NCBI RefSeq assembly: GCF_001895925.1
Contig: NZ_MPPI01000026.1
Coordinates: 15,412-64,240, forward strand
Length of the DNA: 48,829 bases
DNA from: Phormidesmis priestleyi ULC007
Lineage (GTDB): Bacteria; Cyanobacteriota; Cyanobacteriia; Leptolyngbyales; Leptolyngbyaceae
Direction of reading: 5' to 3'
Made by a program: the position numbers and the translations under genes. Position 1 is the stretch's first letter, and each line of letters begins with the position of its first letter. Below are positions 1-17,551 of the stretch, piece after piece. A model generated the notes under the pieces. It had not been told where the DNA came from. It made no database searches and worked only from the letters and a program-made list of their open reading frames with translations.

Positions 1-2733
1 GGCTCGTTTGCGCTCGTTGGTATCCCGAAAGAAAAGAGACAACCCAGTCGGTGAAGGATAAACGTGAACCTCAAGCCACAAATCAAGCGGGGGATAATAT
101 TCCTCAAATTGCACCACGACCTGTTCGCTCAGCGATCGTCGATATTGGAATTCAAACTGGGTTTCGATTATGTCTGGGAACGATTCCCATATCGTTTTGC
201 CCAGCATTGCTTCTAAAGGAGTTTGCGTCACTCGCTCGGCGGCTTTGTTGGCGTAAGTAAAGCGAAAGTCGCGATCTAATGCCATAAACGCATCGGTAAC
301 GCGACCCAGAATCGTTCGCTCTCGCTGAGTGGCTTCTTGCCGTAGCTGTGCCAGCTTCAAACTTGCTTCTACCCTTGCCAACAGTTCACGCACTGAGAAC
401 GGTTTAGTTAGATAGTCGTCGGCCCCGGCTGCGAGTCCTTCAATCCGAGCTTCTTCGCCTGCGCGGGCTGATAACAGAATGACTGGAATGTCTTGAGTAG
501 CGGAATTAGACCGCAGCGGCGACCCCTCCGGAGGCTTGCGAAGCAAACGCAACAACTCAAACCCATCCATCCCCGGCATCATCACATCGGTTAACACTAG
601 ATCGGGTGGATTATTTTGAATCGCTGTCAAAGCAGCAACGCCATCGGCAACGGTCTGAACGGTATAAGAACTACTCAAGAGCCGTCGAATATAATCACGC
701 ATATCAGCGTTGTCGTCTGCCAATAAGATTTTAGATTTTGAGGTTTCAAGGTTCGATAAAGCCGATTGCTTGTCAGATTCAGGCGTGAATCGGTCAGGAT
801 GATCGGCGAGTTCAGATGCGATCGACAAATCCATGCTTTGGGGTAGCCATCGTTGTGCTTCTTCGACATAAGGTATCGCCCCTAATGCAGTAGATGCTAC
901 GGTGCGGCTTGCTCGAATCCGCTCGATCGATAAATGCGCGGTTCCGGTCGGAATTGAAACCGTAAAGCAACTCCCTTGCCCAAAGGTGCTGGTTACTGCG
1001 ATCGTACCACCCTGTAACTTAACGAGTTCTTGCACTAGCGATAGCCCAATACCAGATCCTTCAAAGCTTCGCCCTTGAGAGTTTTGAACGCGGTGGAAGC
1101 GCTCAAATAAATGCGGCAATTCATCAGATGGAATCCCGACACCTGTATCAGCAACCGATAATTCAACGTGAGAGGTTAGCCACTGTAATCGCACCGTAAT
1201 CGATCCAGATAACGTGAACTTAAATGCATTTGATAAAAGATTGAGAACGATTTTCTCCCACATTTCGCAATCGACATAAATCGCTTCGGGCAATGGTGGA
1301 GTGTCCACTATTAATGACAGTCCCGCCTGTTCTATCAGCGATCGAAAGGCGCTTGCAAGGTCTGCCGTATAAAGGGCTAAATCGACAGGTTCATAGACTG
1401 CCTGCACTCGCCCCGCTTCAATGCGCGAGAAATCAAGCAGCATATTCACTAACTTTTGGAGTCGCAAACCATTGCGCTGCACCAGGTTTAATTGTTCCCG
1501 TTCATCAGGCTGCAAGCGGTTGTCTAGCGTGGTTGACAACTCTTCGAGCGGACTCAGCATCAGCGTGAGCGGGGTGCGGAATTCGTGAGAGACATTGCTA
1601 AAAAACACGGTTTTGGCACGATCGACTTCTGCCAACGCTTCCGATCGTTTGCGTTCTTCTTCATAAGCATTGGCGTTAGCGAGGCTGGCTGAAATTTGCG
1701 CTGTCACTAGATCAATAAATCGCTGATAGTTGTCGTCAAACAGCCGGAATGGGTTTAGCCCAGCCACCAAGAATCCTACCCTTCCGGTTTGACTAGATGG
1801 CATGCCTTCAGAGTTACGTAAGACCCCGATCGGTGCAACGATGGCTTGGTGGGGCGATCGTTGCCAAGCCCCCATCGGCAAATGGTCAAATATCGTTTCT
1901 AAATCTGAAATTAGACGACCCTTTTGAGTTTTGAAGACTTCTGCAAACTGCCAAATCGAATCGGCATCGAGATCAAAACTTTTAGAAGCCGCGACGTGAC
2001 GGCTATTTTGTAGTTCCCCAGAAGAGTCATCAATGCCGCAGGTTCCAGCCAGAAAAACAGACTGCTGATCAGAATCGATCAGATAAATCATCGCAAACGG
2101 CAGATCGTAGGGATTCGTTTCTAAACAACTCATACTCCGCGTACAGGCTTCATCAAAGGTGCGGGCATCTGCGGTTTTGGCTGCCAGTTCTCTGAGCAGG
2201 GTCAATTGCCGCTCTCCAATGATGCGCTGTGTGTCATCGGTGTTAGCACAAATGATGCCGCCAGTTTCGCCATTATCATCTGGCACCGGACTATAGGAAA
2301 ATGTGTAATAAGTTTCTTCTGAATAGCCGTTACGCTCCATAATCAGCAACAGCGCTTCGTCGTAAGTGCCCTCGTTTTTGAGCATTGCAGACTCGGCGCG
2401 CGGCCCCACCTGATCCCAGATTTCTCGCCAAACCACAGAAGCGGGTTGCCCTAGTGCTGTTGGGTGTTTGCCTCCTACGATCGCTCGATAGGCATCGTTG
2501 TAAAGGTTAATCAGGTCATCACCCCACCAAACAAACATCGGTTGTCGAGAGGTCAGCATAATGCGGACGGCAGTTTTGAGGCTTTGCGACCACTGCGCTG
2601 GCGAACCCAGTGACGTTTCTGACCAGTCTATTGCTCGCATCAACGCACCCGTCGCACCTCCACCCGCGAGAACGTTCTCGATTTTTCCTTGCGGCGATCC
2701 TTCTGAGTTTTGTGAAGCAAATCGTTCAGTCAT
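1..2733 (-). CDS. Hybrid sensor histidine kinase, C-terminus beyond the window
   Basis: The frame is open for 911 codons from an ATG at 2733 (AAAGGA just upstream) to the window edge, so the protein is partial. In order I read: a PAS-like region (about residues 30-170), a GAF-like region (190-350), a HisKA domain with the H-box motif VSHEFRTP near residue 383, a HATPase_c domain with motifs VADTGVGIP and GSGIGLSLV, a receiver domain with acceptor Asp in LVLTDVMMPGMDG near residue 714 and the switch Lys in DDYLTKPF, and a second PAS domain ending in the usual FRDTNERKRA linker. That linker normally leads into more PAS/GAF or a second kinase core, so this is probably a multi-step phosphorelay sensor. 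No transmembrane segment is visible, suggesting a cytoplasmic sensor. The receiver carries a short in-frame insertion (see 511-550). The start overlaps the end of a receiver remnant by 8 bp, implying a former response-regulator/kinase operon. The signal sensed is unknown. Confidence 0.9.
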   Translation of the reverse strand, partial: MTERFASQNSEGSPQGKIENVLAGGGATGALMRAIDWSETSLGSPAQWSQSLKTAVRIMLTSRQPMFVWWGDDLINLYNDAYRAIVGGKHPTALGQPASVVWREIWDQVGPRAESAMLKNEGTYDEALLLIMERNGYSEETYYTFSYSPVPDDNGETGGIICANTDDTQRIIGERQLTLLRELAAKTADARTFDEACTRSMSCLETNPYDLPFAMIYLIDSDQQSVFLAGTCGIDDSSGELQNSRHVAASKSFDLDADSIWQFAEVFKTQKGRLISDLETIFDHLPMGAWQRSPHQAIVAPIGVLRNSEGMPSSQTGRVGFLVAGLNPFRLFDDNYQRFIDLVTAQISASLANANAYEEERKRSEALAEVDRAKTVFFSNVSHEFRTPLTLMLSPLEELSTTLDNRLQPDEREQLNLVQRNGLRLQKLVNMLLDFSRIEAGRVQAVYEPVDLALYTADLASAFRSLIEQAGLSLIVDTPPLPEAIYVDCEMWEKIVLNLLSNAFKFTLSGSITVRLQWLTSHVELSVADTGVGIPSDELPHLFERFHRVQNSQGRSFEGSGIGLSLVQELVKLQGGTIAVTSTFGQGSCFTVSIPTGTAHLSIERIRASRTVASTALGAIPYVEEAQRWLPQSMDLSIASELADHPDRFTPESDKQSALSNLETSKSKILLADDNADMRDYIRRLLSSSYTVQTVADGVAALTAIQNNPPDLVLTDVMMPGMDGFELLRLLRKPPEGSPLRSNSATQDIPVILLSARAGEEARIEGLAAGADDYLTKPFSVRELLARVEASLKLAQLRQEATQRERTILGRVTDAFMALDRDFRFTYANKAAERVTQTPLEAMLGKTIWESFPDIIETQFEFQYRRSLSEQVVVQFEEYYPPLDLWLEVHVYPSPTGLSLFFRDTNERKRA
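511..550. repeat. Small palindromic insertion inside the receiver domain
   Basis: The stretch contains two adjacent palindromes, CCTCCGGAGG (525-534) and GCTTGCGAAGC (534-544). In the kinase frame it adds about 11 residues (KPPEGSPLRSN) between LLRLLR and ATQDIPVILLSA, where receiver domains normally have a short uninterrupted loop. It resembles the short palindromic elements that sit in frame inside cyanobacterial genes. That it is an inserted element is an inference from the receiver alignment. Confidence 0.5.
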
Positions 2734-2914
2734 TTCCAGTCCTTTCTACTAACGTCACAATTATTTTGACTAATGCTTCTAGATCGTCAGGTTTAGTCAG
2801 GTGTTTTTGAAAGCCCGCGTTGAGTGCCTGCTGTTGATCATACTCGCCCGCGTAGGCGATCGGGGCAATGGCTGGATCGCTATAAAGTCTGACGATATCG
2901 TGCTCGATCGTCAC
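2726..2914 (-). pseudogene. Response-regulator receiver remnant
   Basis: The 62-residue frame matches only the C-terminal half of a receiver domain: AYAGEYDQQQALNAGFQKHL, then TKPDDLEALVKIIVTL, i.e. beta-4, alpha-4, the TKP switch-lysine motif and alpha-5. The N-terminal half with the acidic pocket and the acceptor Asp is missing, and the first 15 or so residues do not look like a receiver. It ends 8 bp inside the start of the kinase gene (TGA at 2728-2726), as a cognate regulator would. I interpret it as the leftover of a deleted or truncated cognate response regulator. It cannot receive a phosphoryl group as it stands. Confidence 0.65.
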
Positions 2915-2990
2915 TCTCAGCCATGATTAAAATCATTTTCTGTCTGTTCCATGTTTAAAGATGTTGTTGACCGTTTGAGACTAGATGAGC

Positions 2991-3281
2991 TTAAGGTTGC
3001 TCGGTTTGTTCGTCAAAGTAATCTTCGAGAAGCGTTTGAGCGCAGACTTGATGAAATTTGATCGGTGAATTTTTGAGTTCATGCAGCATCGCTTTTAGCT
3101 GCATCAGCGCCAGCGACGAAGGCTGCGATCGATTGTTTTCCCACCGATTAATCGTGGGGAGAGTCACCCCTAACTTTCGAGCAAACTGCGCTTGGGTTAG
3201 CCCTAACAGTTGACGCAACTGACGGATAACAATGCCAATTTCGCTTTGAGGCTTGGCTAGGGGACTAGACGTAGTTGCCAT
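2991..3281 (-). CDS. XRE-family helix-turn-helix transcriptional regulator
   Basis: This is a 96-residue protein with a Cro/C1-type HTH at about residues 16-70: IGIVIRQLRQLLGLTQAQFA, then RKLGVTLPTINRWENNRSQP, which carries the Q-x-x-x-A...T-I-x-x-W-E-N signature. The remaining C-terminal segment is short and helical and has no recognisable sensor domain. Single-domain XRE proteins of this size are usually local or self-repressors. A perfect 10-bp dyad lies 19 bp upstream of its ATG (3300-3335) and is the natural operator candidate. It may also be the antitoxin half of a lost toxin-antitoxin pair, since no partner gene is adjacent. Its target is unknown. Confidence 0.85.
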   Translation of the reverse strand: MATTSSPLAKPQSEIGIVIRQLRQLLGLTQAQFARKLGVTLPTINRWENNRSQPSSLALMQLKAMLHELKNSPIKFHQVCAQTLLEDYFDEQTEQP

Positions 3282-8513: not shown

Positions 8514-8842
8514 CGTAGCGTCACGAAGATTTTAGTACATAGTGCAAGCGAACTAAATGGCGTTGCCGATCTAACGATTGATTATACGGAAACTTTCCGT
8601 GTATCTCCCCTCACTTTTCATCAGAGATCCTAGAGAAACGGTGCTTCGCAGTTCCCCAAAGAGGTGTCGCCTGCACCTTCCCATTGAGGTAATCGCGCCC
8701 CTCAAAAATTCAGCATTCCAAAAAAGCAAAAACTCCTGTAGAATACATCGCAGTGATGGAGTCGTGCCCCGAAGTCTGATGTGGCTATCAGAACTCCGAG
8801 GACTTCCATCCTAAGTTAGCGTTCATAACTCAGGAGGCGTTC
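8514..8842. other. Gene-free stretch with a possible half attC and a long hairpin
   Basis: GTTAGATCG (8507-8515) has its exact reverse complement CGATCTAAC at 8565-8573. On the minus strand the second copy is preceded by ATAATCAATC, closely resembling the spacer and R' of attC-like copy 1 (CTCAATC-GTTAGAC), so a decayed third site is possible. A 78-codon plus-strand frame at 8578-8814 has no family resemblance and overlaps the hairpin at 8755-8810; I do not call it a gene. Confidence 0.3.
8755..8810 (+). other. Imperfect hairpin upstream of a small ORF
   Basis: GATGGAGTC (8755-8763) can pair with GACTTCCATC (8801-8810) and the inner TCTGAT pairs with ATCAGA. It ends 33 bp before the ATG of the 39-aa ORF. 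It has no T-tract, so it is not a standard terminator; a transcript-level regulatory structure is possible. Confidence 0.35.
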
Positions 8843-8962
8843 ATGATTGTACACCGTCAGCTTTGCGATGGGATCTTGGAAGGGTGGAATCAAGATCCAG
8901 CAAGTCTTTTATACCCGTGCAGAATGTCTGAGACTTCAGCATTCTCATCCTCTTTGACTTAA
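8843..8962 (+). CDS. Small unrecognised ORF (39 aa) with a strong ribosome binding site
   Basis: ATG 8843 follows CAGGAGG by 5-6 nt, the best Shine-Dalgarno in this part of the window. The product begins MIVHRQLCDGILEGWNQDPA and ends FSSSLT; it is soluble with two Cys and matches nothing I know. It is followed after 17 bp by the 123-aa ORF. The arrangement (hairpin, short ORF with strong SD, hairpin, longer ORF) resembles a leader-peptide module, but the peptide is not biased for any one amino acid. Coding status is unproven. Confidence 0.4.
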   Translation: MIVHRQLCDGILEGWNQDPASLLYPCRMSETSAFSSSLT

Positions 8963-8979
8963 CAGAGAGGACAAACAAC

Positions 8980-9351
8980 ATGGGAGCCAGGAATATCTTT
9001 CCTGGCTCGATCGCGTTCACTGTTGAGTTACAGTTCTCGACGATGAAACGCTATCGAGTCACCGTTACTTTGGATTTGCAAGAGCGTTTGATCTTTCTGT
9101 CGTCTGGCATTCTTCCTAATGTGATCGATTCTATTGAGGAATTTGTTTCACAACTGAGTACGATCGCCTCAAATCAACTAGCAGCGTTCAAGTGGGATGG
9201 CACTAGTGACTTGACGACAGAATATCAAATTGTGCGAGTGTTGCCGGGATATCAAGTAGAACGTTCTCTCGTGAAGTTCAACATTGTCTTGGGCAACAGT
9301 TCACTGATTTACCTGGAGGAATTGCACAACAAAACTACGATTCAACTGTAG
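8980..9351 (+). CDS. Hypothetical protein (123 aa)
   Basis: The start at ATG 8980 has AGAGAGG 11 nt upstream; an alternative ATG at 9043 (MKRYRVTVTLDLQERLIFLS, 102 aa) lacks a Shine-Dalgarno but begins like the first beta-strand of a compact domain. The body alternates strands and one long helix (NVIDSIEEFVSQLSTIAS) with no motif I recognise. A perfect 10-bp hairpin (8984-9008) lies between the two starts, which makes the first 21 residues doubtful. It is probably coupled to the 39-aa ORF 17 bp upstream. Function unknown. Confidence 0.5.
   Translation: MGARNIFPGSIAFTVELQFSTMKRYRVTVTLDLQERLIFLSSGILPNVIDSIEEFVSQLSTIASNQLAAFKWDGTSDLTTEYQIVRVLPGYQVERSLVKFNIVLGNSSLIYLEELHNKTTIQL
8984..9008 (+). 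other. Perfect 10-bp hairpin at the start of the 123-aa ORF
   Basis: GAGCCAGGAA (8984-8993) and TTCCTGGCTC (8999-9008) are exact reverse complements separated by TATCT. It lies 4 nt after ATG 8980. There is no downstream T-run, so translation or processing control is more likely than termination. Confidence 0.45.
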
Positions 9352-9517
9352 AACGTTGCAGATTAGGGAGTCGTTAATCGTGTGTCGGGTCAAAGTTCTT
9401 TTCTTCACATACACGCGGCTCTCTAAATTTCCTAAGTCTACTGAAACGAGAAGAGAAATGGAAAGGCAATTGTGTTGTTAGAGACAATCCCACTGAGTTT
9501 AATTAATGAACCATGCC

Positions 9518-10627
9518 CTAAACACTGGTGTAAACCCGTTGATAGTAGGTTTGATACTGCGAGGAGAGTAGAGGTTGCCACCAGTCAGGGTGAGCGAGAT
9601 ACCACTGAACGGTTTGTCGCAACCCACTCGCGATCGTTTCACGAGGAGTCCAGCCCAACTCGGTTGTGATCTTGGTGGCATCAATGGCGTAGCGGCGATC
9701 GTGTCCCGGTCGGTCTTTGACAAAGGTAATTAGACGACGACAAGGGCGCACAGGTAGCTCAGGTGCAAGTTCTTCCATCAAATCGCAAAGCATGTGAACT
9801 AGGTCAATATTTTTGACTTCGTTGTTGCCTCCAATGTTATAGGTTTCGCCAAGTTTACCTTGATGAATGACTGCATCAAGCGCCCGACAATGATCGGCTA
9901 CAAAAAGCCAGTCTCGAATATTTTGCCCATCTCCATAAACGGGTAAAGGCTTACCCATCAAGATGTTGATGCAGATCAAAGGGATTAGCTTCTCTGGAAA
10001 ATGGTAAGGGCCGTAGTTGTTCGAGCAATTTGTAATCAGCGTGGGTAAGCCGTAAGTATGGTAGTAGGCACGCACTAAATGATCGCTACCTGCTTTAGAG
10101 GCAGAGTAAGGACTGTTTGGCGCAAAAGGAGTAGTCTCTGTAAAAGCAGGATCATTGGGTTCTAGGCTGCCATAAACCTCATCGGTAGAGATGTGCAGAA
10201 ATCGATAGTCGATCGGTTTCTGGTTGGCTTTCCAGTACTGGTGGAACGCTTCTAAAAGCGTGAAGGTGCCGACAATATTCGTGCGAATGAACGCATCGGG
10301 TTCTAGAATCGAGCGATCGACGTGCGACTCAGCCGCAAAATGGACGATCGTATCAATAGCTCCTGCTTGCAGAAGTGCGTCAACTAAGAGACGATCGCAA
10401 ATATCTCCCTGAACAAATCGCAGCTTGTTCACTGAAGTTTCTAAGCCTGCCAAGTTTCGCCGATTGCCTGCATAGGTAAGGGCATCAAGGACGACAACGC
10501 GGTCTTGTGGATAAGCAGCGCACCAGTGATGGACGAAGTTTGAGCCAATAAATCCGGCTCCACCTGTAATCAATACTTTCCGAGGCGTTCTAGCAGTATT
10601 ATCGAGATTGTTGTGCATGATGATCAC
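9518..10627 (-). CDS. rfbB: dTDP-glucose 4,6-dehydratase
   Basis: The 369-residue protein has the Rossmann motif [14 protein letters not shown] near its N-terminus, the catalytic STDEVYGSL, and the [15 protein letters not shown] Tyr-x-x-x-Lys pair of extended short-chain dehydrogenases, with full RmlB length. It converts dTDP-glucose to dTDP-4-keto-6-deoxyglucose, the second step of dTDP-rhamnose synthesis. The GTG at 10627 overlaps the rfbA stop (GTGA); ATG 10618 is an equally good start. It is the last and only intact gene of an rfbC-rfbD-rfbA-rfbB operon. Because its product feeds several other 6-deoxysugars, it could be kept for another pathway, or it may simply not have decayed yet. Confidence 0.93.
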
Positions 10628-11701
10628 ACTAATTCAATTTGACAGTCATCCCCAATCAGAAAGCGCAAGGCTTTGGGTCGTTGCGGCGCAACCGTGAGAT
10701 GAGCGCGTTGCCCAATTACGCTATCGACAATGCGGTGATGCACCCCGTTGATTTTTGCCCCTTGCAGAATCACACTGTGTTCGAGATCAACATCAATCAG
10801 GGTGACTTGATCGGCAACACTGCTATAAGGGCCAATAAAGCAATTTTCGATGTAGCAATCGTTGCCGATCGCCACAGGGCCGCGAATGGTACAGTTGACG
10901 ATTTGTGATCCTGCCCCAATCTCAACTCTGCCAATAATCTGGCTTTGAGCATCGACCCTTCCCACCACAGCAGAGGTGAGGCAGCTATCGAGAATGATTT
11001 GATTGGCTGCCAGCAGATCATCTTTTTTCCCCGTGTCTAACCACCAGCCTTCTAGCTCAGAAGCTTCGACTCGCTTTTGCTGATCAATCAAAAATTGAAT
11101 CGCATCGGTAATTTCGAGTTCACCGCGCAGGGAAGGCTGAATCTCAGTGATCGCGTGGTGAATCGCGCTCGAAAAGAAGTAAATTCCGACCAGCGCTAAG
11201 TTTGAGGAAGGAACCTTTGGCTTCTCGACTAGCTGAAGGACTCGCCCCTGCTCGTCTAGCTAGCTGGGCGACCCCAAACGCGCTAGGGTTGGCAACGGCT
11301 CTCAAGGGAATCAGGGCATCCAGCGTTTGAGCTTTAAAGCGATCCAAAAACTCCGCTAACCCTCCCTGGATCAGGTTATCGCCCAAGTACATAATGAACG
11401 GGGCATCTCCTAAAAAGGGTTGAGCCACCTTAACGGCATGCGCCAAACCCGCAGGCTGTTCTTGCAGAATGTAGGTAATATTGGCCCCGAAGCGATCGCC
11501 ATTTCCGGTCTTGGCTTGCACTTCTTCGCCCGTTTCAGGGCTAATGACAATGCCGATCTCCGTGATCCCAGCGGCAACAATGCCTTCAATGCCGTACCAG
11601 AGAATGGGTTTATTGGCTACCGGAACGAGCTGCTTTGCGCCTGTGTAAGTCAGCGGTCGCAAGCGTGTGCCCTTGCCGCCTGAGAGAATGAGTGCTTTCA
11701 T
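10624..11701 (-). pseudogene. rfbA: Glucose-1-phosphate thymidylyltransferase, frameshifted by a 4-bp duplication
   Basis: The first frame (ATG 11701) reads [20 protein letters not shown] and stays typical of RmlA up to PSAFGVAQL. The DNA then holds TAGCTAGC (plus strand 11257-11264), a tandem duplication of four bases. Removing one copy gives [20 protein letters not shown], the expected continuation, and the second frame then runs to the stop at 10624 through a left-handed beta-helix C-terminal domain (IGNDCYIENCFIGPYSSV). The repaired gene would be 357 codons plus stop, the length of the long RmlA type. As sequenced, the first frame ends with a missense tail at 11144. Its ATG overlaps the rfbD stop (ATGA). 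A sequencing or assembly error cannot be excluded. Confidence 0.85.
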
Positions 11702-12809
11702 CGTTTTGTTTGTAAAAGAGTGGCATTGTTGGCTCGAAGCTCAATCAGCATCTGTCTGAGCGCTGTTCTCCAGTGAGGCGGATGGGTTTCTAGCAGGGTA
11801 GAGATTTTTGCACAACCGAGAATCGAATAAGCAGGACGCTGGGCTGGGGTGGGATATTCAGCCGTTGTAATGGGAATCACAGACTGAACTTTTAAGGGAA
11901 ACCCTAGTTGTTCAGCTTCCTCAAAAGTCGCGATCGCAAAATCGTACCAACTTGCCGCTCCACTATTGGTGAAGTGGTAAGTTCCCGAAGTCTCCGGGTT
12001 GAGTTTAGGAATCAGTTGCGCGATCGCGTGCGCGAGATGGTTGCTCCAAGTCGGGGTGCCGATTTGGTCAGAGACGACGCGAATTTGTTCGCGTTCAGAT
12101 CCTAGCTTCAGCATGGTTTTCACAAAATTACTTTTCCCATAAGCACCATAAACCCAGGCAGTTCTCAAAATGATGTAACTGTTTGTTTGATTGGCAGGGC
12201 GATGCAGCCACGCTTGCTGAAGAGCTTGCTCTCCGCCTAATTTAGAGTGTCCATAAACACTAATTGGGTTAGTAGAATCTTGCTCGGTGTAGGGCGTGTT
12301 TTTCTGGCCATCAAACACATAGTCCGTCGAAATATGAATCAGATCCGCACGGGTGCGACCTCCATCCGATACATTGGAAAAAACCGATTACCTTTTGCTC
12401 CATAAGGGTTTTGAGTGCCTGTAAAATTGATCAATGAATAATCAAAAAGACTACTGTGAAATCGTTCAAAAACCTTATCAGCAGGAGGCTTGAGTCACTT
12501 TAGTATCAGGTAGAGGTCGCACCCATCCGCACCCAGTTGTTGAGCAGATTTCGCCATGACTGCGGGGGCGATCGCATTAATGGCTGCTGCGGCGGCAGAG
12601 TCGGTTTCGGCGCGATCGACGGCCGTGTAAGCAGCCGCATTCACAATCAAATCAGGCTTGACTTGATGAATGATTTGCTGAATGGTAGCAGGCTGGGCTA
12701 AGTCCATAGTGTTCCGCCCCACCCCAATCACCACCCCTAACGATCCAAGTGTTTTCTGAAGTTCCTGTCCCACTTGTCCATCGTTGCCCGTGAGTAAGAT
12801 GCGTCTCAT
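11698..12809 (-). pseudogene. rfbD: dTDP-4-dehydrorhamnose reductase, interrupted by a MITE
   Basis: The N-terminal part (ATG 12809, MRRILLTGNDGQVGQELQKT) holds the NAD(P)-binding glycine motif and VNAAAYTAVDRAE. At AQQLGAD it runs into a 174-bp element. Deleting the element and one 8-bp target copy joins it in frame to LIHISTDYVFDGQKN, then SVYGHSKLGGEQAL (Tyr-x-x-x-Lys) and the C-terminal substrate domain to 11698. The repaired gene would encode 309 residues, the RmlD norm. The net insertion of 182 bp shifts the frame, so no complete enzyme is made. Both ends overlap neighbours by ATGA, so the operon was tightly coupled. Confidence 0.88.
12351..12524. mobile_element. 174-bp MITE with 22-bp inverted ends and an 8-bp target duplication
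   Basis: The ends start GGGTGCGACCTC on both sides and continue with 10 further bp, matching at 19 of 22 positions (12351-12372 against the complement of 12503-12524). The flanks are identical: ATCCGCAC at 12343-12350 and at 12525-12532. There is no reading frame of note inside. An 8-bp duplication with GGG-type ends points to mobilisation by a full-length insertion sequence elsewhere in the genome; I cannot name the family. The near-intact ends suggest a fairly recent insertion. Confidence 0.9.
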
Positions 12810-13036
12810 ACAAAGAGTTCGGCTGCTTTGAAGGGTTGACCTGCTTGATCTTTCAGTCCACGCAAAACATTCCGCGTAGAGCGAGAGTGATTGTCTTGAA
12901 CGAAATGAGCCGTGATTCCCGCTTTCTCAGAGAGCGTTTTTTCGTTGTAGCTTTCAAAAAAGCAGCCGCGATCGTCTTGGAAGACACGAGGAAGGATCAA
13001 GACATCAGGAATAGAGATCGGTAGAACGTTTATCAT
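12806..13036 (-). pseudogene. rfbC: dTDP-4-dehydrorhamnose 3,5-epimerase, internally deleted
   Basis: The 76-residue frame opens as a normal RmlC (IPDVLILPRVFQDDRGCFFE, then FVQDNHSRSTRNVLRGL) and then jumps to KDQAGQPFKAAELFV, which resembles the extreme C-terminus of the family (LSAKDQ...). Family members are about 180 residues, so roughly 105 codons containing the cupin core with its catalytic His and Tyr are gone, in frame. The remnant cannot be an active epimerase. Its stop overlaps the rfbD start (ATGA), showing this was the first gene of the operon. Confidence 0.82.
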
Positions 13037-13696: not shown

Positions 13697-15910
13697 TCAG
13701 GACGACTGCAACAGATTTTTTAATTCTTGCTCACGGTGTTGGAGGCGTTCGGCTAACAGATTGACCACAAACCGATGAACATTTGAAGCTAAAAGCGGAT
13801 CAGAGGCTTCAATCTGCTCAAACGCCTCAGTCGATAGAAAGTAGACTGTGCTGGGTTTATCAGCCACGACAGAGGCCATCCGCAGCGTCTTGCGATAGAG
13901 ACCCATTTCTCCGATCGTGTTGCCCACTGTGTAGGTGCGAATCCGTTTGGTTTGCCCCTCGCCCAAGTCGAGCACCACGCTTACTTGACCTGACCCAACA
14001 AAATATAAGCCATCAAACGGGTCGCCCTGGTGAAATAGATAGTCTCCTTCTGCAAAGAGCCGATCTTCAAGCCGACTCATCAAGCGATCGACCTGAATCG
14101 GATCTGAAAAATCTGCTTTGAGGTGTTCAGAGAGCGATCGGGCTTCTAGCTCACTCAGGTTGCTGGCGGCGAGAACCTGCTGCTCACACCACTCAAGCCC
14201 GCGATCTAAATCTGCAAAAACGTGAGAAAACGGGTCATCGGCTTCGAGACAGTCGCCTTGCTTAAGTCGCTGCATGGCTTCATGAGACAGATCGGTAAAC
14301 AGCAAATGTACCTGTTTTGAGGTGGCGACTTGCTTAAGTTTGGCAAAACTGAGCACGGCGGAGGCATCCAATCCACTCACCAGCCGAAAGTCTAAAATCA
14401 CAAATCGAACGGCGATCGCGGTCGGGTGATCGATGCGATCGCGAATCTGGGTCAACAGTTTGTTGGCGGTGCCAAAAAAGATCAGCCCTTGCAGTTCTAG
14501 AAGATAAATCTGTTCGCCTTCAGCATCTAAAACGTCTAGTTCTTCAGAGATTCGCATCACATTGCTGTGCTGGAATGCACCTGAACCCACTCGTTTTGTG
14601 ACGGATAACTGACTGTAGTTGACCACAAATAGCACGATCGCGGCGATCAGTCCGATGCCGATGCCTTGCAGGTAGCCAAGGGTGCCCGTCACCACCACAA
14701 TCAGCACAATAATCGCATAGTCCGATCGCGAGAGTTTGAACCAAGCTTGATAGAGCCATTCATAGAAGAATTCCAATCCGAGCAGCAGCGGAATGCCCAC
14801 CAAAACAAATTTAGGAACGAGCGAAAGCAGTGACGCACCTCCTAACAGCATGGCTAAACAGATTCCGGTAATCGTCCAGCCCACGATGCGCCGGGTGCCG
14901 CCTAAATGACGAGCCAGCGTGTTTTCTCCCGAACTGGCAAATCCACCAATGCCGCCCCCCAAACCAGAGGCGATCGAGGCAGCCCCCGCCACTTTTAGCT
15001 CATGATTAAGGTCAAGATCGCGAGAGGCAGCCAGCTCGATGCCATTGGCGTTGAGCAACAGCGCCATTGACTCTATGAGCCAGAGTGCGGCTAGACTCGG
15101 CAACTGCTTCAAAACAACGCCCCAATTTGCCTGAGTCAGCGCCGGAATCGTTGTAAAGCGGTAAAGGCTGCCAGGGGGAAGCGTTCCTAAAAGCAAACTG
15201 CGATCGGTAGCTTGCTCGATCGAGGTGCCCGTCATCGCCAAAGCAACGTAAAACAGAATGAACGCGATCGCGATAATGCCGGGGATAACTAAAAAGTGAT
15301 CGATCAGTTGAGGAATTGCAAACATTGCCACTGCAAAGATCAGAGCAGGCACCCACTGAAGCAGCACGTCGGGTTGAAAGAACGCTGAAAGAGTTAAGTG
15401 ATGAAAATCAAGCCCTCCGATCGAGTGCATCGCTCCTTCAATCAGCAGCACTCCTGTACCTGCAAGAAAGCCGCCGACGATCGGATAAGGAATAAATCGG
15501 ACAAAGCCACCGAGTTTGAACCGACCCAGCAAGGTAAAGATAATGCCACCTGCAACGGCATACAGCACGATCGTCGCCGTGAGCGTTAATAATTTATCTT
15601 CGGGTGAGGCGTTGGGCATCTGATCGAGAATTTGTCGAGCAACCAGACTTAACACTGGAATGCTCGGCTCTGAAACCGTTCCCACAATGGCAGGATAAGC
15701 GCTAAATGTCGTCACAATCAGACTCACCATGGTTGCACTAAACAGCATCAACCCAGCGCCAAACGGCAGCGCATTTGAGAAGTCTCCAGAGAAGATCACT
15801 GAGGCAAATGAGACGACTGTGATCACGGTCAAAAGCCCCATCGTGCCGCCTGTGGTGAGGTTTAAGACTAGAGGATGGGCGGCGGGTCTAGAATGCGGTT
15901 TAGTAGTCAC
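13697..15910 (-). CDS. SulP (SLC26) anion transporter with STAS and cyclic-nucleotide-binding domains
   Basis: The 737-residue protein has a hydrophobic transport domain at about 20-435 (segments such as IPYPIVGGFLAGTGVLLIEG; GLGGGIGGFASSGENTLARH resembles the conserved SulP helix region), a STAS domain at 465-570 (IYLLELQGLIFFGTANKLL, FVILDFRLVSGLDASAV with the usual D-x-S-A) and a cyclic-nucleotide-binding domain at 600-720 (EGDYLFHQGDPFDGLYFVGS, then GEMGLYRKTLRMAS). SulP proteins move sulfate, bicarbonate or other anions across the inner membrane; in cyanobacteria BicA-type members carry bicarbonate, but substrate cannot be read from sequence. In the nucleotide pocket the usual R-[TS]-A is R-M-A, so binding should be tested. 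It is divergent to an MscS channel that also ends in such a domain, with 177 bp between the starts. Confidence 0.88.
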   Translation of the reverse strand: MTTKPHSRPAAHPLVLNLTTGGTMGLLTVITVVSFASVIFSGDFSNALPFGAGLMLFSATMVSLIVTTFSAYPAIVGTVSEPSIPVLSLVARQILDQMPNASPEDKLLTLTATIVLYAVAGGIIFTLLGRFKLGGFVRFIPYPIVGGFLAGTGVLLIEGAMHSIGGLDFHHLTLSAFFQPDVLLQWVPALIFAVAMFAIPQLIDHFLVIPGIIAIAFILFYVALAMTGTSIEQATDRSLLLGTLPPGSLYRFTTIPALTQANWGVVLKQLPSLAALWLIESMALLLNANGIELAASRDLDLNHELKVAGAASIASGLGGGIGGFASSGENTLARHLGGTRRIVGWTITGICLAMLLGGASLLSLVPKFVLVGIPLLLGLEFFYEWLYQAWFKLSRSDYAIIVLIVVVTGTLGYLQGIGIGLIAAIVLFVVNYSQLSVTKRVGSGAFQHSNVMRISEELDVLDAEGEQIYLLELQGLIFFGTANKLLTQIRDRIDHPTAIAVRFVILDFRLVSGLDASAVLSFAKLKQVATSKQVHLLFTDLSHEAMQRLKQGDCLEADDPFSHVFADLDRGLEWCEQQVLAASNLSELEARSLSEHLKADFSDPIQVDRLMSRLEDRLFAEGDYLFHQGDPFDGLYFVGSGQVSVVLDLGEGQTKRIRTYTVGNTIGEMGLYRKTLRMASVVADKPSTVYFLSTEAFEQIEASDPLLASNVHRFVVNLLAERLQHREQELKNLLQSS

Positions 15911-16087
15911 TTTTTATAAATGTGAGATTATTAGGACGTGATAGCGTTTTTGCAGAACTTATTAATACTACAAGTGTTTTAGAATCAAAATTTCTAAATA
16001 GGGCTGGCATCCATCTGAGGATAGAATTTTGAGATCCATAAGTGATAGATTACATACTACAAAAGCGATCGCTAGGAGTATTTGAAG

Positions 16088-17551
16088 ATGGAACTGCAAT
16101 CAGCCTTTTACTGGGCAGACATTCAAATTAAGCAGTTTTTTCAAGACTTGTTAAATGCTTTTAATAGCAGCTTGTTCACGTTTGCAGGAGAGAAATTTTC
16201 TCTGGGGTTGGTCGCGGGATTAATCACTCAAGTAATCATTGTTTTAGTGCTGGCAAATATAGTTAAGCGACTACTAAAGGAACGAATTTTGCCCGGCTTT
16301 AAACTAGAAATTGGTACACGAGAATCACTTTCAACGATCACTAGCTACATCATTACAGCAATTGGCTTTCTCATCGTGCTAGAGACGGCTGGTATTAATT
16401 TCAGTTCTCTAGCGGTGTTTGCGGGCGCGATCGGCATTGGGGTTGGCATTGGGTTGCAGAACTTGTCCAGCAATTTTATCAGTGGTCTAACGCTGCTATT
16501 TGAGCAACCGATTAAAGTAGGCGATTATATTGAAGTCGATAAACTTGCAGGAACGGTCGAAACAATTGCCATTCGATCGACCACAATTCGCACAGTTAAC
16601 GGTGTATTTGTGATTGTGCCTAACAGCCGCTTTCTCGACAACAATGTGGTGAATTGGAGCTATCGCGATCCTAAATGTCGGATTGAGATTCCGGTGCGGG
16701 TTGCCGAAGAGAGCGACTCGCTAACCGTGTTAGAAGCGCTGCTAACGGCGGCTCGTCAGGAGCCAAGAGTTTTGCCGTCTCCATCGCCAGAGGTTTACTT
16801 TAAGGGAATTGCAGAGGACGCGCTCACCTTTGACCTGATGGTGTGGATTCGTGACCCGATCGAGATGGATGCGATTAAGAGTGCCCTCCGATTTTTGATC
16901 GAGGCAGAATTTCGCGATCGCGCCATTGATCAGAACATAGCCACTAAGCTGACGATCGAGAATCTGCCCTCGCTGGCAGCCCTGCTGAGATCCTCTCCAA
17001 CAAACGAGTTTGCGGTAAAAGCGGGTGACTCAGAGATGGCTGAAATGCCGATCGGGGGCTGGATGTTGCGCGATCTGTTGCGAAAAGTTAGCTATTTTCA
17101 ACAGTGCGGTGAGATCGAGCTACGGCAGGTGATTGAGAAGGGCTATCGTAAAAAACTGCCGATCGGCGAAACGATCTGTCGAGAGGGCGATCCAGGTGAT
17201 TCATTTTATATTATTCTGTCAGGTTCGGTGGAGGTGTTTATCGAATCGATCGACAAACAAGTTGCTGTTCGCAGGGCAGGCGAGTTTATTGGTGAAATGT
17301 CGCTGCTCATGGGTACGCCGCGCACTGCTACTTTGCGAACATTAGAAGAAACCATTTTGTTTGTTGTTGATCACGGTAATTTGCAAAACCTGTTAAAAAA
17401 TAACCAAGGGTTAGCAGACAAGATTGCAGAAGAATTATCTGATCGCCAAGAAGTGTTAAAAAGTTTAGGCATTACGATCGATACCACTACAAAAGAAGGA
17501 ACCTCCTTTGATCAAATTCGTAGAAGAATTCAATCTATTTTCGGAATTTAA
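16088..17551 (+). CDS. MscS-type channel with a C-terminal cyclic-nucleotide-binding domain
   Basis: I start at ATG 16088, with AGGAG 9 nt upstream, rather than the TTG two codons before; the product is 487 residues. Three hydrophobic segments lead to the MscS pore helix (VFAGAIGIGVGIGLQNLSS, near 120) and beta domain (LLFEQPIKVGDYIEVDKLAG, VIVPNSRFLDNNVVNWSYRD). A cyclic-nucleotide-binding domain follows at about 340-460 (GETICREGDPGDSFYIILSG, GEFIGEMSLLMGTPRTA, with the phosphate-binding Glu and Arg). This is the bacterial cyclic-nucleotide-gated (bCNG) architecture: ion flow controlled by cAMP or cGMP, with weak or no response to tension in studied members. It shares an intergenic region with the SulP gene, which has the same regulatory domain. 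Confidence 0.9.
   Translation: MELQSAFYWADIQIKQFFQDLLNAFNSSLFTFAGEKFSLGLVAGLITQVIIVLVLANIVKRLLKERILPGFKLEIGTRESLSTITSYIITAIGFLIVLETAGINFSSLAVFAGAIGIGVGIGLQNLSSNFISGLTLLFEQPIKVGDYIEVDKLAGTVETIAIRSTTIRTVNGVFVIVPNSRFLDNNVVNWSYRDPKCRIEIPVRVAEESDSLTVLEALLTAARQEPRVLPSPSPEVYFKGIAEDALTFDLMVWIRDPIEMDAIKSALRFLIEAEFRDRAIDQNIATKLTIENLPSLAALLRSSPTNEFAVKAGDSEMAEMPIGGWMLRDLLRKVSYFQQCGEIELRQVIEKGYRKKLPIGETICREGDPGDSFYIILSGSVEVFIESIDKQVAVRRAGEFIGEMSLLMGTPRTATLRTLEETILFVVDHGNLQNLLKNNQGLADKIAEELSDRQEVLKSLGITIDTTTKEGTSFDQIRRRIQSIFGI

Follow-up and report, generated by a model that had tools for sequence, protein, structure and literature searches.

A 174-bp MITE within rmlD of Phormidesmis priestleyi ULC007, its probable ISKra4-family partner, and a composite of the two

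Structure of the element and its insertion site

In Phormidesmis priestleyi ULC007, a cyanobacterium from an Antarctic lake (PMC5313606), the sugar-synthesis gene rmlD (rfbD) is divided by a short element bounded by inverted repeats, which raises the questions of what kind of element this is, what moves it, and whether its arrival dates the loss of the gene. The window, that is, the whole stretch of DNA analysed (48,829 nucleotides), lies within contig C34, and the genome searched was the ULC007 draft of 5,684,389 bp in 118 contigs. We refer to the element as MITE-A; the features at the insertion site are as follows.

12351-12524, no strand: MITE-A, 174 bp; in the genome 14 full copies and 1 partial copy, 9/14 identical
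12351-12372, plus strand: left terminal inverted repeat, 22 bp; 19/22 against the other end, 16/22 and 18/22 against the ends of the collapsed IS
12503-12524, minus strand: right terminal inverted repeat, 22 bp; 19/22 against each end of the collapsed ISKra4-family IS
12343-12350, no strand: target site duplication, copy 1, ATCCGCAC
12525-12532, no strand: target site duplication, copy 2, ATCCGCAC
12525-12809, minus strand: rmlD (rfbD), N-terminal 95 codons; PF04321 positions 2-94, TIGR01214 positions 1-93
11698-12342, minus strand: rmlD (rfbD), C-terminal 214 codons and stop; PF04321 positions 96-285, TIGR01214 positions 95-283

The preliminary description, made from the letters of the window, gave a 174-bp element with 22-bp ends that match at 19 positions and an 8-bp flanking duplication, and all three measurements are correct. 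The paired positions of the ends comprise the first 12 of 12 bases and 7 of the next 10, and ATCCGCAC stands on both flanks with 8/8 bases identical, a given 8-bp match having a chance of ~1.5e-5 by arithmetic with equal bases. The two pieces of RmlD show 56% and 60% identity to the intact RmlD of a same-genus genome and abut with neither gap nor overlap at the junction, so that the proposal that removal of the element restores the protein is borne out for the pieces as compared separately, not as a joined sequence. The insertion adds 174 + 8 bases, a number not divisible by three, and the frame entering from upstream stops inside MITE-A after 104 codons.

No open reading frame of 50 aa or more lies inside the element, and its 174 bp fall within the MITE size range of 50-500 bp. 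Short length with no transposase gene, inverted ends, target duplication, dispersed copies and a partner insertion sequence (IS) with similar ends were all found, and size, ends, duplication and copy number agree with the original designation as a MITE. When the window was searched for GGGTGCGACCTC with at most two mismatches, the two matches were these two MITE-A ends; this count is uninformative, because a 12-mer at such laxity matches as often by chance (2.94 expected). The weight lies with the perfect pair of end motifs, the duplication and the other copies, and not with the motif count in the window.

Copies across the ULC007 genome

A multi-copy family had been predicted, and the own-genome search recovered 14 full copies at 99-100% identity together with 1 partial copy at a contig edge. 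Nine of the 14, the rmlD copy included, are identical over 174 bp to MITE-A in rmlD, in keeping with the recent movement proposed earlier; one further copy matches over 173 bp and has its last base altered, two carry one difference, and two carry two. Perfect target duplications flank 10/14 full copies, with a length of 8 bp at nine and 9 bp at one. The duplication length of 8 bp holds for the insertion in rmlD; across the family it is 8 or 9 bp.

Four full copies (L002, L003, L010, and L013) have no clean duplication. L002 and L003 each stand at the end of a larger unit. In L010, counting the altered last base as part of the element gives a duplication with a single mismatch, and L013, which has no duplication, adjoins an inverted repeat 1.5 kb or more in length. 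On contig C72, the inner flanks of L013 and L015 are inverted repeats of one another, identical across the 1500 bases compared, and this arrangement may be either real or an artefact of assembly.

At least 5/14 copies (L004, L005, L007, L008, and L014) lie in frames that are open for at least 83 codons on each side, as counted without a shuffled control. Protein family matches on both sides of the insertion were obtained for the rmlD copy and for the copy in an FGGY-family kinase gene (L008); for L004 only one side gave a match (TPR), and for L005 and L014 neither side did. An empty orthologous site is present in the same-genus genome for L008, the one copy tested in this way: query positions 580-1501 and 1674-3174 match adjacent bases there, with a 10-base overlap and no element between them. 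Judged from these sequences, MITE-A is most likely a recently multiplied MITE that moved in trans, and it is plausible that the family is still active.

The partner insertion sequence

The preliminary description also called for an IS of full length with the same ends, and one with an intact ISKra4-family transposase gene was found at C69:7061-8446. This IS is complete, 1386 bp long, has GGGTGCGACC ends, and carries a single 434-aa ORF between them. The predicted transposase scores 227.3 bits against NF033572 (ISKra4 family), above the cut-off of 205, and has no Pfam match at E 0.001; no target duplication was seen at the flanks of the IS. The ISKra4 family is equated with p-MULT 4, which is related to Mutator, and p-MULT 4 elements have been reported from cyanobacteria, according to the accessible part of PMC3942029. 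The ISMich2 subgroup was considered for the partner IS and rejected: its group has two ORFs in the accessible text of the same source (PMC3942029), whereas the gene here is one ORF and not a two-ORF gene with a -1 frameshift.

In the assembly, a higher-copy relative of the C69 IS, 85% identical to it over ~390 bp, is collapsed: nine contig ends carry its left side, and nine contig ends (eight contigs) carry its right side. Left ends C118 and C101 have a 1.5-kb flank in common, and C102 and C57 have a composite in common, leaving seven distinct left flanks. Four left/right pairs show perfect duplications of 8 or 9 bp, as in MITE-A, and the flank shared by C118 and C101 pairs with the C44 right end at 8/9 positions. 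Aside from the C57 unit described below, the ends left unpaired are right ends C28, C29, and C38 and left end C54. The draft did not yield the middle of the higher-copy IS, and a demonstrably intact gene is present only in the divergent C69 copy.

Mode of movement

With anatomy, copy number, duplications, and one empty site established, and with an intact transposase gene found between matching ends, we considered what moves MITE-A. Its right end agrees with both ends of the higher-copy IS at 19/22 positions each and its left end at 16/22 and 18/22, and its 12-bp terminus is that of the IS left end. The likeness is confined to the ends, with no similarity to the IS detectable for the MITE-A interior in the own-genome search, and MITE-A is therefore not a simple deletion derivative. 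We regard it as highly probable that MITE-A, which has no transposase of its own, is moved in trans by an ISKra4-family transposase acting through the similar ends. The transposase of the resident IS would most likely bind the GGGTGCGACCTC-type ends that it has in common with the MITE and either cut out or copy the element; joining of the MITE to a cut staggered by 8 bases, or sometimes 9, would then give rise to the flanking duplication, and one such insertion would have divided rmlD. The occurrence of a MITE end and an IS end on one unit gives indirect support to this most likely route, and the movement may be recent or continuing.

The dissimilar interior, together with agreement of only 16/22 and 18/22 between the left end of MITE-A and the IS ends, would also suit movement by the transposase of another family whose ends are similar, but the shared 12-bp terminus of MITE-A and the IS left end, the duplications of 8-9 bp at both MITE and IS, and the inserted unit bounded by one MITE end and one IS end make such an origin of the copies extremely improbable. 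Folding bears on a different kind of explanation, in which an RNA or regulatory function maintains the element as a structured repeat, comparable to REP or Correia-type repeats, and its spread is due to its hairpin and not to its mobility. MITE-A with its duplications folds better than 200/200 shuffles on each strand (z -4.5 and -6.4), and the second family described below, MITE-B, folds well too (z -4.7). However, the outer stem consists of the inverted ends themselves, perfect target duplications flank 10/14 copies, at least 5/14 copies lie in frames that are open well into both sides, and none of the 49 predicted pairs shows compensatory changes in an alignment of 8 copies from three genomes. 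Because compensatory changes are absent over the 8 copies despite the strong folding, we give little weight to an RNA role and consider it very unlikely.

A composite of MITE-A, host DNA and IS

On C57 (L003:1675-1958) and on C102 (367-650), MITE-A and the IS left end enclose one and the same 284-bp segment, and the flanks outside the MITE differ between these two contigs. The 284 bp also occur at C41:992-1287, with one 12-base gap and one mismatch, and neither MITE nor IS adjoins them there. The unit formed by C102 and C66, consisting of MITE-A, the 284 bp, and the IS, has the 8-bp sequence ACAACAAG on both of its outer sides: it stands outside the MITE on C102 and is the start of the flank past the IS right end on C66. 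Across the flanks of this unit, a single frame runs without a stop through 488 codons on one side and through 500 on the other, which is the full extent of the flanks examined.

This match came from a comparison in which 13 left flanks were set against 9 right ends; arithmetic gives a chance expectation of ~5 in 10,000 when the four MITE-side flanks are considered and ~2 in 1,000 for all 13. Separate insertion of MITE and IS beside the 284 bp was considered for C102/C66 and rejected, as the inner and outer flanks differ for each element and the two outer flanks match. Most simply, the unit would have moved through joint use of one MITE end and one IS end, and it is a clear example of inserted host DNA with a MITE at one boundary and an IS at the other. 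The C57 unit had no counterpart with a matching duplication among the 9 right ends, and its insertion is only half shown. On balance, we think it probable that the 174-bp MITE serves as a full end of a composite opposite a complete ISKra4-family IS, that such units carry host DNA to new sites in ULC007, and that Phormidesmis is undergoing a recent burst of the MITE families and the IS.

State of the rml cluster

The preliminary description took the insertion as the date at which the gene was lost. The neighbours of rmlD bear on this point, and the remaining rml features of the window are the following.

12806-13036, minus strand: rmlC (rfbC) remnant, ~105 internal codons gone, frame kept; TIGR01221 positions 2-65 of 176
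11144-11701, minus strand: rmlA (rfbA), 5' part, frameshift near 11259-11267
10624-11091, minus strand: rmlA (rfbA), 3' part, in another frame; TIGR01208 positions 202-353, tblastn frames -1 and -2
9518-10627, minus strand: rmlB (rfbB), apparently intact; TIGR01181, 509 bits, profile positions 1-321 of 321

Three lesions (in rmlC, rmlD, and rmlA) lie between positions 9518 and 13036 of the window, and rmlB is apparently intact. The rmlC remnant matches both ends, but not the middle, of the intact 181-aa RmlC of the same-genus genome, with the start and the last ~14 residues kept, and no second rmlC was found in the ULC007 assembly, where the deleted remnant is the sole match. Elsewhere in the genome, RmlD is matched by a piece of a 744-aa open frame on C40, at 226.7 against a cut-off of 224.05. 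Given the rmlC deletion, the rmlA frameshift, and the absence of another rmlC from the assembly, the proposed dating is not supported: the pathway is broken elsewhere too, so the MITE-A insertion cannot be taken to date the loss of the gene. More generally, a clean insertion in a gene does not date its loss when neighbouring genes are also broken.

The cluster may have been dead already when the MITE arrived, in which case the insertion in rmlD would be a passenger in decaying DNA, and we see this as an even call. The ~105 codons missing from rmlC, the frameshift in rmlA, and the lack of any other rmlC found in the genome argue for such an order, but one draft genome does not allow the order of the lesions to be read, and an error of assembly could also account for the short frameshift. 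Moreover, the rmlD pieces are otherwise free of stops and match their profiles well, and rmlB looks intact, so that all of the lesions may be recent. An insertion into an already dead cluster is compatible with a MITE mobilised in trans.

The rml genes lie at another place in the same-genus genome, with ~70% identity (window 9570-12176), compared with 83% for the neighbouring permease region (13701-16500), and the history of the rml cluster may differ from that of the adjacent permease region. Because of this different location, that genome has no orthologous empty site for the rmlD insertion. Window positions ~8690-9380 have many matches (77-84%) dispersed across the same-genus genome.

Known systems and related elements

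Nezha, which Zhou et al. reportedly described in 2008 from Anabaena and Nostoc, is said to be a small AT-rich MITE with ~24-bp ends, ~9-bp duplications, and a matching IS; its likeness to MITE-A lies in these general features. With the ISKra4 family, the present system shares inverted ends and a partner transposase above the NCBIfam cut-off, but MITE-A itself has no gene. Insertion upstream of sigma-A promoters is described for several ISKra4-group members in the accessible part of PMC3942029, whereas at least 5/14 MITE-A copies lie inside long open frames. In MITE pairs with DNA carried between them (Acinetobacter integrons, MITE-297), as far as the accessible parts of PMC6382973 and the review PMC10969869 go, a MITE likewise bounds a unit carrying other DNA. 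There, MITEs stand at both boundaries, whereas the ULC007 unit has one MITE and one full IS, with a chromosomal cargo of 284 bp.

No description of an ISKra4-linked cyanobacterial MITE was found in the literature searched, which was accessible in part and had most subscription papers outside its scope, and one may be published. The present analysis adds such a family in cyanobacteria, together with the IS that is probably its partner and a second, sister family of MITEs. MITE-A is an ordinary kind of element that is well documented here, and the composite is modestly interesting.

The sister family, MITE-B, is 172 bp long, has three copies in the genome, and carries the same 12-bp terminus as MITE-A. 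One of its copies has a perfect 8-bp duplication, one a duplication of 7 bp, and one none; the copy with the 8-bp duplication (L018:1387-1558) divides a histidine kinase gene into two halves.

Related MITEs were detected in 3/42 genomes of the family and in 4/388 genomes drawn from the class, ULC007 included in both cases. In a species-level collection, from which ULC007 records may be absent, the terminal pattern was found in 25 stretches belonging to three named organisms (P. priestleyi BC1401, Leptolyngbyaceae CSU_1_3, and Aphanocapsa GSE-SYN-MK-11-07L); the pattern also matches IS ends. In the 15 BC1401 stretches inspected, IS right ends stand close to contig ends, each with its own flank.

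In the same-genus genome (G030), several transposase matches are truncated owing to contig ends and to a common 4-base difference. Agreement in contig numbers and coordinates suggests that G030 is BC1401. Six IS copies there (L130-L134 and L137) carry this difference, which breaks the transposase frame. The transposase matches suggest a seventh such copy on C100, as if a defective IS had multiplied in that genome. On its contig C118, a MITE adjoins a truncated IS.
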